Shown here one piece after another: positions 38,252 through 40,886 of a stretch of DNA of 40,886 bases. The notes beneath the pieces are model-generated. The model was not told where the DNA came from, made no database searches, and saw only the letters and a program-made list of their open reading frames with translations. Every line of letters begins with the position of its first letter. Position 1 is the first letter of the stretch. Position numbers and translations under genes: made by a program. Origin of the DNA: Methanosphaera sp. (GTDB lineage: Archaea; Methanobacteriota; Methanobacteria; Methanobacteriales; Methanobacteriaceae); the NCBI GenBank assembly GCA_017431845.1, contig JAFRKG010000185.1, forward strand, positions 1 to 40,886, in the 5' to 3' direction.

Positions 38252-40135
38252 ATGGAAATAACAAAAGATTGGGAACTATACGAAGCAGGAATAGAGTATA
38301 ACCAACAAGTTTATGGTGCTGACCGTAACTATTATGAAGTTTTAGACACAAATATTGCTTTCGCAAGTGGCGACCAATGGAGAGGAGTTCAAGCAGATGG
38401 ACTACCAAAACCTGTTTTTAACATCATAAAGCGTGTAAAACAGTTTAAAATCGCATCTTTAAAGGCAGATAACATCTCAATTCAACTAACTCCAATGGAA
38501 TATAGACCACAATCTGAAGATATAACAATGCAACATAAGGTAAAACAAGCAGATTTAGCAAATGCTGAAATCAAAAACATCTTAGAGAACATAAATTTTG
38601 ATGCTAAAAGTCGTACACTTTTATCTGATGGATTCGATACAGGAGATTGGTGTATGCACTTTTACTTTGATATGGATGAACAACCTTATAAGAGCTATAT
38701 GCCAAGCGTAAAAGGTGTAATAAAAGCAGAAATAATCGACTCTACTAATGTAATGTTTGGAAATCCAAACACTCGTCAAGTAGATAAACAACCATACATC
38801 ATAATTGTAGGTAGAAATTTAGTTAAAAATCTACAAGAAGAAGCAAAAAAGAATAAATCAAGCCAAATTGACCGTATTAAAGGTGATTCTGAAACAGATT
38901 ATCAGATGGGAGATAACGGAAAAGTAGAAAATTCTGCTGATGGATATGAAAAAGCACTATATATAATCAAGTATTATAAGAAAAACGGTAAAATTTATGC
39001 TAATAAATCTACTAAAAACGCTTATATTTACAAAGAAAAAGACACAAAACTAAGTTATTATCCTATTGCGTTTAATAACTGGGAAGAAGTTAAAGGAACA
39101 TATCACGGTAGAGCAGAAACTACTGGTATAATTCCTAACCAAATAGCGATAAATAAGATGTTTGCGATGGTTATTTATCATTTGATGCTAACAGCTTTTC
39201 CTACAGCAGTATATGATGCAGATCGTATAGAGGGTTGGACTAATGAAATAGGTGCACAAATACCTGTAACTAACCTACAAGGCGACTCAATTCACAATAT
39301 TGCAGGTTATTTAGAACCAGCAACAATGAGTGGACAAATAATGAACGCTATTGAGTTAGCTATGCAATACACAAAAGAGACTTTAGGAGTAGGAGATGCT
39401 TCTTTAGGTAATGTAACAATGAATAATGCAACTGCAATCATAGCAATACAAAAGAGTGCAGCAGTACCATTAGAGAACGTAAAAGCTGCATTATATGAAT
39501 TTGTAGAAGATTCAGGAAAAATCATTGTTGATATGATGGCATCTTACTACGGACCAAGACCAGTTGTAGTACAAGGACCAAATAATGAACGTACAGTAGA
39601 GATGTTTGACTTTGGACAACTAAAAGATATGTGGATGCACATAAAAACAGACATCGGAAACGCTTCATACTTCTCTGAAGTAGCAAGTATTCAAACATTA
39701 GATAATTTGTTAAACAACGGTATGATAGAATTTGTTGAATATCTAAGAAGAATACCTGATGAAATCATACCTCAAAAGCAAGAACTTATAAATTCTATCG
39801 AACAAAACGACATTTATAAACAAGCAATCTATAACTTGATGGGACAATTTATGGATACACTACCACCTGAAGTAAGAGCACAATTACTACAATTAAATCC
39901 AGAACAAATGGAACAACGTGTCCTAGAAATGATGGGAGCATTAGATAATGGAACTCAAGGTATGGCACAAATCTCTGATATGGAGAATCCACTACCAACT
40001 CCTGAAGATCTAGCAGGAACATTACAACAAGGAGAACCTGGATTTATGGAAATGATGCAACCACAAACTGAAGTTGGAAGAGATTCAGTAAAGAAAATGC
40101 AAGATTTAGAAGAAATAGGAGGATTACAGAGCTAA
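38252..40135 (+). CDS. Portal protein
   Basis: A 627-aa dodecameric portal. The N-terminus resembles podophage portals (NIAFASGDQWRG at about 32-43, then PKPVFNIIKRVKQFKIASLK and NISIQLTPMEY). The middle includes the wing/stem elements with YYKKNGKIYANKS and NQIAINKMFAMVIYHLMLTA; the C-terminus is a helical, Gln/Glu/Pro-rich barrel/tail ending LEEIGGLQS. It forms the vertex for DNA entry and tail attachment. ATG follows AAAAGGAAGTGAAATAG. Length is within the usual 550-750 aa of podophage portals. Confidence 0.93.
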   Translation: MEITKDWELYEAGIEYNQQVYGADRNYYEVLDTNIAFASGDQWRGVQADGLPKPVFNIIKRVKQFKIASLKADNISIQLTPMEYRPQSEDITMQHKVKQADLANAEIKNILENINFDAKSRTLLSDGFDTGDWCMHFYFDMDEQPYKSYMPSVKGVIKAEIIDSTNVMFGNPNTRQVDKQPYIIIVGRNLVKNLQEEAKKNKSSQIDRIKGDSETDYQMGDNGKVENSADGYEKALYIIKYYKKNGKIYANKSTKNAYIYKEKDTKLSYYPIAFNNWEEVKGTYHGRAETTGIIPNQIAINKMFAMVIYHLMLTAFPTAVYDADRIEGWTNEIGAQIPVTNLQGDSIHNIAGYLEPATMSGQIMNAIELAMQYTKETLGVGDASLGNVTMNNATAIIAIQKSAAVPLENVKAALYEFVEDSGKIIVDMMASYYGPRPVVVQGPNNERTVEMFDFGQLKDMWMHIKTDIGNASYFSEVASIQTLDNLLNNGMIEFVEYLRRIPDEIIPQKQELINSIEQNDIYKQAIYNLMGQFMDTLPPEVRAQLLQLNPEQMEQRVLEMMGALDNGTQGMAQISDMENPLPTPEDLAGTLQQGEPGFMEMMQPQTEVGRDSVKKMQDLEEIGGLQS

Positions 40136-40162
40136 TTAATTGGGATGTATATGGGAACAGGA

Positions 40163-40598
40163 AAGTATCATTTTAACTGTTGGAAGGGTTGGTAAGATAC
40201 TTGATAAATCACTCCTGAAATGCTGCTTATAGGCAGCATAGGGTAGAAAGAAATAAAAAAATTTAAAAGAAAGAGCCAAAAAAAGTATCGGCGAACTGCT
40301 TTAATATAAGTTTGTATAAAAAATAACCAACCTATCTGACTTTCTATCCTATGGTGTCTATAAAGGCACTATTCTAGATTTTGTCAATTTTTTGGCATAA
40401 AACAGTGCTACCTTATTGGTAGCATAGAGTAGATATACCTAGTATTGCATTGTGAAGTTTAGAGACCTATTACGAGGGACATATAAGACAATACATATAG
40501 GGAGTGAAAGTTCATATTTGATAGGTCAAGAACGACTAACTCTATATCTATTCTATGGTGCTAATAAATAGCACTAAGACACATTATGTGTCTTTTTT
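40163..40598 (+). ncRNA. Structured noncoding RNA candidate with two homologous modules
   Basis: No gene fits 40136-40630. Module 1: hairpin 40221-40226/40233-40238, long helix 40239-40250/40340-40351 (12 bp, one G-U), hairpin 40354-40358/40365-40369. Module 2: hairpin 40406-40412/40418-40424, long helix 40425-40437/40543-40555 (13 bp, one G-U at the same place), hairpin 40558-40563/40569-40574. Compensating base changes between modules keep the pairing. An entry hairpin pairs 40163-40169 with 40196-40202; inside module 2, 40464-40470 pairs with 40521-40527. A strong terminator ends the element. I do not recognise the class. It lies between portal and scaffold. Confidence 0.75.
40576..40598 (+). 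terminator. Terminator ending the RNA candidate
   Basis: AAGACACA (40576-40583) pairs with TGTGTCTT (40587-40594), TTA loop, then more T. It lies 32 nt before the scaffold start, inside the late operon, so scaffold and capsid expression would need readthrough or another promoter. Confidence 0.9.
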
Positions 40599-40630
40599 AA
40601 TGCCCAACCATAGGCAAAGGAGGAAATTAA

Positions 40631-40886
40631 ATGGAAGATGAGAAAATTGTTGATGGTACACCAACAGAAACAATGGAATCAGACGATGACTTTTTTAATG
40701 ATGTAGACGATGAAGTCTTAGGAGAAGAAAGTCAAGAATCATCAGAAGAAGAAACAAATGAGGATAGCGAACCAAGTGAAACTCAGGAAGATAATTCAGA
40801 AGATGAAAACGAAGTGGATTTTAAACCTTTGTTGGAAGAATTATCAAAGAAGGTAAAGTACAACAAAGAAAACGTAACTATTGAAA
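40631..40886 (+). CDS. Scaffolding protein, 5' part (continues at base 3)
   Basis: This is the true start of the scaffold gene: ATG at 40631 behind AAAGGAGGAAATTAA. The first 61 residues are strongly acidic (MESDDDFFNDVDDEVLGEES and onward) and absent from the left-end fragment. The frame continues without break into 3-752 for 288 aa in total. The acidic N-terminus may keep it soluble or bind the portal or basic capsid faces (inference). Confidence 0.88.
   Translation, partial: MEDEKIVDGTPTETMESDDDFFNDVDDEVLGEESQESSEEETNEDSEPSETQEDNSEDENEVDFKPLLEELSKKVKYNKENVTIE
40746..40886. repeat. Terminal direct repeat, right copy
   Basis: Identical to 1-141; see the left copy. Removing one copy gives a circle of 40,745 bp. 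Confidence 0.9.

Follow-up and report, generated by a model that had tools for sequence, protein, structure and literature searches.

A phage RNA module with a covarying loop pair and exchangeable cargo at the portal–scaffold junction and other sites

The window, i.e. the whole stretch of 40,886 nt analysed here, is a complete phage genome of ~40.7 kb whose first and last 141 bases are identical (a terminal overlap), with the scaffold gene spanning the genome ends. The locus runs in the order large terminase (phrog_979), portal (phrog_156), gap, scaffold-like protein (phrog_14606) and major head protein, and the 495 nt between portal and scaffold (40136–40630) carry no gene on the coding strand, as the initial annotation had stated. 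The RNA fold z-score for 40100–40640 is −5.0, no promoter of its own is evident for an RNA within the window gap, and ARAGORN and an Rfam cloverleaf search revealed no tRNA in the window. In GenBank, the only relatives of the portal belong to Bacillus Pageviruses (~30% identity) and to one unannotated fecal phage contig; IMG/VR supplied 72 loci with portal relatives, and a BLAST search with the gap sequence in 50,697 phages returned only short, chance-like matches inside other genes. Two 40,887-bp contigs from goat-ileum metagenome-assembled genomes (L114 and L115) are identical to the window over this region. One of these genomes had been binned as Methanobrevibacter and the other as Clostridia, so the bin is uninformative about the phage host, and host assignment from it was dropped.

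The gap holds two copies of one design (Table 1), as had been read from the sequence alone. Each copy comprises a hairpin (A) whose loop starts TTAT, a long-range helix (B) of 13 or 14 bp, whose strands pair as AGGGTAGA/TCTATCCT and AGAGTAGA/TCTATTCT with a G–U at the same place in both modules, and a hairpin (C) starting GGTG and ending GCAC with a TATAAA or AATAAA loop; the tip of helix B carries a segment that we call the cargo. In a descriptor search of the whole window only these two modules rise above background. What the initial annotation overlooked is that the loops of hairpins A and C are complementary. The two kissing pairs differ within the window, UUAUA/UAUAA in one module versus UUAUU/AAUAA in the other.

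Table 1. Structured elements in and around the portal–scaffold gap, in coordinates of the window.
Feature	Position	Strand	Details
Pseudoknot-like element (H-type), separate, AACAG/CTGTT crossing AGTATC/GATACT	40153–40201	+	few relatives
Module 1 (whole; A, B, cargo and C in this order)	40220–40372	+	
Module 1 hairpin A, ATGCTGC-TTATAG-GCAGCAT	40220–40239	+	loop TTATA at 40227–40231
Module 1 helix B 5' strand, ATAGGGTAGAAAG	40238–40250	+	13 bp with 40340–40352
Module 1 cargo	40251–40339	+	89 nt; A-rich with weak structure
Module 1 helix B 3' strand, CTTTCTATCCTAT	40340–40352	+	
Module 1 hairpin C, GGTGTC-TATAAA-GGCAC	40353–40369	+	TATAA at 40359–40363 complements loop A TTATA
Module 2 (whole)	40405–40576	+	
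Module 2 hairpin A, GTGCTACC-TTATT-GGTAGCAT	40405–40425	+	
Module 2 helix B 5' strand, ATAGAGTAGATATA	40424–40437	+	14 bp with 40543–40556
Module 2 cargo	40438–40542	+	105 nt; 97% identical to pre-terL cargo of L031 and its relatives L052, L107 and L109
Module 2 helix B 3' strand, TATATCTATTCTAT	40543–40556	+	
Module 2 hairpin C, GGTGCT-AATAAAT-AGCACT	40557–40575	+	AATAA complements loop A TTATT
Intrinsic terminator, accessory	40576–40598	+	in 2/29 module-bearing gaps
Conserved hairpin, separate, TGCC-CAACCATA-GGCA	40601–40616	+	just before scaffold Shine-Dalgarno

Among the relatives, the portal–scaffold gap is 70–830 nt long and most close relatives carry a module in it, typically with hairpin A as CUACC-UUAUA-GGUAG, a helix B of free sequence and a hairpin C such as AGUACU-UAUAA-AGUACU. 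The unit is the single module, of which a gap has one to three, alone or in tandem, and which also occurs at other sites; the idea of one RNA built from two modules and special to this gap, as first envisaged, is not supported. In many close relatives the module begins 0–10 nt past the preceding stop codon, and in many it ends 33 nt ahead of the scaffold start. A descriptor that joins A, B and C with complementary loops matched 46 times in the portal–scaffold gaps of the relatives, where dinucleotide-shuffled sequence yields 3.4 matches, and viral contigs were scanned with the conserved helix-B ends to locate further modules. A covariance model built without cargo (R1) misses cargo-bearing modules, those of the window included, and pattern and descriptor searches were therefore used instead. 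In many relatives (e.g. L012, L017, L048 and L051) a small charged ORF runs across the portal stop codon, and it is this ORF, not the portal gene, that the module follows; in L024 the gap after 5191 shows, by eye, a homing-endonuclease-like (HNH-type) ORF between module and scaffold gene.

Conserved pairing was looked for in these related phages and found, and the paired differences between the two window copies, first taken as covariation inside one genome, extend across phages. In 38 distinct modules, two-sided changes occur at 23/23 pairs, all five loop–loop pairs included; 97.6% of cells are paired and the covariation score is 0.965 versus 0.227 when shuffled (0/500 shuffles), in a set where stems were partly selected for pairing and the best loop register was taken, which inflates the percentage paired and leaves the variety of pair types untouched. 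The complements of loop A and loop C change together, as UUAUA/UAUAA, UUAUU/AAUAA, UUAAUA/UAUUAA, CUUAUG/CAUAAG, UAGUA/UACUA, UUUACA/UGUAAA, UUGCA/UGCAA and UUCAAAA/UUUUGAA. At least five Watson–Crick pairs join the two loops in 30/33 units that were found by their stems and not by loop pairing, against a permuted mean of 13.3 and a permuted maximum of 23 (0/20,000 trials reach 30), and in 50 modules chosen by helix-B sequence alone, with both hairpins present, the loop pairing score is 279.5 versus 220.4 permuted, the maximum of 50,000 permutations being 248. Since the permutations exchange modules freely and take no account of the relatedness of the phages, their P values are indicative; the variety of compensated loop classes is the stronger argument. 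As the loops are both complementary and covarying, those of hairpins A and C very probably kiss.

Helix B contains 94 G–U pairs versus 6 A–C mismatches, which identifies RNA of the coding strand as the folded form, and module orientation follows that of the neighbouring genes. In tandem modules each loop fits its own partner better than the neighbour's (5.6 versus 4.3), although identical module copies might still pair between molecules, and several copies missing one hairpin arm retain, by eye, the loop complement. There is also an alternative fold, in which helix B and the loop–loop pairs are kept and the 3' arm of hairpin A pairs with the 5' arm of hairpin C to form a rod; cross-complementarity between these arms is seen in 318/388 cells (82%), compared with 45% for A5'/C3'. 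Minimum free energy folding without kissing energy retains hairpin A in 50/64 modules, and ViennaRNA, which ignores kissing, favours a different fold for module 1 of the window. In these models, the clamp fold and the A3'/C5' rod are both possible.

Beyond the portal–scaffold junction, modules occur upstream of terS and terL, after terL, after a minor head gene and beside tRNA genes. A tRNA gene lies within 500 nt of 18/60 modules, where 5.5 would be expected, and for all 25 modules with a tRNA in the same locus it is on the same strand. At the junction itself, the module is also found with another portal family, phrog_64 (L096, L139 and L140), where the downstream 210-aa protein is scaffold-like by position only and has no PHROG match, and in L085 it lies ahead of a phrog_2303 scaffold gene. 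The suggestion of a role in the head operon is therefore upheld in so far as the junction recurs with a different portal family, but the tRNA-adjacent and other sites show the module to lack specificity for packaging. Many uncultured phages reuse this folded RNA at several sites. In L082 (reverse strand, rc 2029–2156) and L127 (1240–1328), hairpin C is replaced by a Shine-Dalgarno sequence and start codon (TTATAAGGAG..ATG), so that the loop partner overlaps the ribosome site.

The module is missing from the portal–scaffold gap in a sub-clade of relatives (L032–L042, 73–75% portal identity) and in all relatives below ~58% identity, and is thus dispensable at this site. The gaps of L032–L042 have two other adjacent hairpins in its place, GGAAGUA..UACUUCC followed by GUGC..GCAC or GGUG..CACC, so the junction remains structured. 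A scan of 84,980 species genomes found the frame, i.e. hairpin A, helix B and hairpin C, only in the two goat-ileum phage contigs and one chance match, and it was absent from 61 genomes around the lineage of the bin; the match in Fischerella (L116) has no proper hairpins and was rejected as chance. An intrinsic terminator had been proposed to end the RNA. It is present in the window, where it would also reduce readthrough, but 27 of the 29 module-bearing gaps do without it, which places it outside the module design and makes it nearly private to the window phage. Such a terminator follows 9/69 modules, compared with 1.4% of random windows.

The cargo ranges from 6 to 170 nt, and 92 cargos fall into 71 sequence clusters, a clustering in which no relative of the module 1 cargo was found. 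In some relatives only, e.g. L096 and L099, ARAGORN or Rfam recognises the cargo as a tRNA cloverleaf: a tRNA-Trp (anticodon CCA) sits on the helix-B tip within the frame in L096 (1717–1792) and L110 (671–746), and another tRNA-Trp (CCA) is embedded there in L099 (5856–5931). L001, L008, L013, L020 and L026 share a cargo that resembles a tRNA with a long variable region and scores 42 bits against the Rfam tRNA model in L001 and L026. In L001 (3738–3866) and L020 (521–651) this cargo comprises hairpins resembling the D, anticodon and T arms together with two additional ones, and stem changes between the two appear compensatory; helix B occupies the position of the acceptor stem, leaving no free 3' end.

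At the other extreme, the portal–scaffold junction in the close clade often carries frame-only copies, whose cargo measures just 6–16 nt, and since many junction copies are nearly cargo-free, the frame itself is the conserved part. Cargo can be 97–100% identical across sites and phages while the flanking hairpins are only 50–88% identical. Such near-identical cargo in dissimilar frames fits replacement of the cargo with the hairpin pair kept at its site, and we infer from these comparisons that the swap occurs by recombination in the helix-B strands. The fold, the loop–loop covariation, the strand, the recurrence at several sites and the sharing of cargo between different frames are established computationally, and we are highly confident of the anatomy, a fixed frame of hairpin A, helix B and hairpin C with exchangeable cargo.

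The portal is needed in 12 copies, whereas scaffold and capsid proteins are needed in hundreds, and a stable message boundary between their genes would be a sensible role for the module. Our preferred reading, held tentatively and with a little less than balanced confidence, is that of a modular phage RNA cassette which would serve at the portal–scaffold junction as an mRNA boundary resistant to decay. The cassette would be transcribed within the late head-gene message and its frame would fold during transcription; pairing of loops A and C would close helix B at its base and lock the three helices into a clamp that resists degradation. The frame would then form a stable mRNA boundary, such that the scaffold/capsid message outlasts, or is uncoupled from, the low-copy portal message. 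Cargo would be carried along as protected accessory RNA and exchanged between phages and sites, probably by helix-B-strand recombination, while the co-adapted hairpin pair stays at each site. The boundary role at the junction, judged by itself, may well be wrong and is offered as plausible rather than probable; it is inapplicable to the modules near tRNA genes, terS and terL. That these phages have a wider RNA cassette system, with site-bound kissing-loop clamps, exchangeable payloads (tRNAs, tRNA-like and small RNAs), tandem arrays and trade by recombination, is quite conceivable without yet being the better bet; the logic of such a system would parallel, at the level of RNA, that of integron gene cassettes.

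The main rival to the boundary reading is a trans-acting RNA, whereby the cassette would be processed out of the message to serve in tRNA supply, as an anti-defence decoy or as an assembly or packaging factor. The tRNA-Trp and tRNA-like folds among the cargo point this way, as do the excess of same-strand tRNA genes near modules and the terminators that follow 9/69 of them, but many modules without real cargo (6–16 nt) retain the frame, 71 unrelated cargo clusters speak against a single common trans function, and the window gap has no evident promoter of its own. Such a role is on balance unlikely, if to be taken seriously, and trans-acting cargo could coexist with a boundary. A switch on scaffold translation, in which a ribosome at the portal stop would open hairpin A and the A3'/C5' rod would alter access to the start, appears improbable. 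It would account for the stop codon 0–10 nt ahead of hairpin A in many phages, the excess of A3'/C5' over A5'/C3' cross-pairing, the loss of hairpin A from 14 of the 64 modules when kissing energy is ignored, and the way in which the C strand of L082 and L127 leads straight into a Shine-Dalgarno sequence and start codon. However, module 1 of the window lies 85 nt beyond the portal stop, many modules at other sites are distant from any start codon, and complementarity of the gap to the scaffold Shine-Dalgarno is not above shuffles in most phages. Apical loops or flanks as an anti-Shine-Dalgarno for the scaffold gene were rejected as a candidate, most gaps being no better than shuffles.

A mobile element at the DNA level (a foldback or an IS200/IS605-like end pair), whose inverted repeats merely look like RNA, would explain the many sites, the tandem arrays, the near-identical cargo at different sites and the inverted-repeat architecture. 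It is very improbable given the G–U bias of helix B and the match of orientation to the genes; moreover, cargo is shared between sites without its flanking hairpins, whereas such an element would move as a whole unit and show no strand preference, and covarying loop–loop pairs would be purposeless in double-stranded DNA. Ordinary terminator-like hairpins without a specific role, suggested by the terminator that ends the gap hairpins in the window phage, are scarcely credible and already disfavoured by the covariation, as 27/29 module-bearing gaps have no terminator, helix B and loop–loop covariation are unnecessary for termination, and the GC-rich hairpin with U-run of an intrinsic terminator was found only in the appended hairpin and not in the modules.

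Considering known RNAs, Rfam 15 at gathering scores gave 0 matches in the window, the ROOL, GOLLD and phi29-type pRNA models included, and the best match at relaxed thresholds was RnaG, with 22.7 bits versus the 153 needed; in the relatives, tRNA alone was matched. No earlier description was found in the literature searched, most subscription papers being outside its scope. The structured RNA thus appears undescribed, as first supposed, and on these two negative results we rate it a categorically new RNA class, a rating that stops short of motif-by-motif comparison with candidate lists outside Rfam (e.g. PMC8040213). ROOL and GOLLD are phage cage RNAs, single RNAs of ~500–850 nt assembling between molecules, of unknown function, often near tRNA genes, with kissing loops and a variable linker, occupied by tRNAs in some GOLLD RNAs (PMC12286853). 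The present modules share with them phage origin, a tRNA neighbourhood, kissing loops and a variable segment, but have a frame of ~60 nt, tandem repeats and loop pairing that is best within the module. ROOL and GOLLD are therefore nearest in biology, not in size, fold or model match, and nothing was found in support of the pRNA-, ROOL- or GOLLD-like roles raised as analogies in the initial annotation.

The loops of phi29 pRNA pair between molecules. Paired loops and a neighbourhood of packaging genes are common to pRNA and the modules, which differ in element order and also lie away from packaging genes. The exonuclease-resistant RNAs of flaviviruses have a compact fold locked by tertiary pairing, and the likeness here goes no further than a tertiary-locked compact fold and a proposed decay resistance. 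Three-way junctions of the purine-riboswitch type likewise place two hairpins with kissing loops beside a closing helix, but the modules have another strand order, no conserved ligand-binding core and no Rfam match.

If the reading of the module holds, it would be a new phage RNA class with a testable rule, that of covarying paired loops around a constant frame, and its frame-and-cargo logic is one for which no description was found among phage RNAs. It would offer a handle on how neighbouring head genes reach very different output, and on which small structured RNAs phages carry and trade, and the frame may serve as a natural scaffold for RNA display.

Two further elements flank the modules. 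The hairpin just before the scaffold Shine-Dalgarno has a loop of C(A/U)ACCA(U/C)A on a freely covarying stem and is kept in phages with 45% portal identity; it resembles a deeply conserved operator for scaffold translation. By eye, it is also seen in a Bacillus Pagevirus (L074) that lacks the kissing module. Upstream of module 1, the start at 40163 given in the initial annotation cuts through the separate pseudoknot-like element. Its pattern, GGGAACAGG.AAGUAUC...CUGUUG..GGGUUGG..GAUAC, is confined to four IMG/VR contigs and the window phage (e.g. L001 at 3521, L003 at 5056 and L015 at 4887), and within it GUAUC/GAUAC changes to GCAUC/GAUGC.
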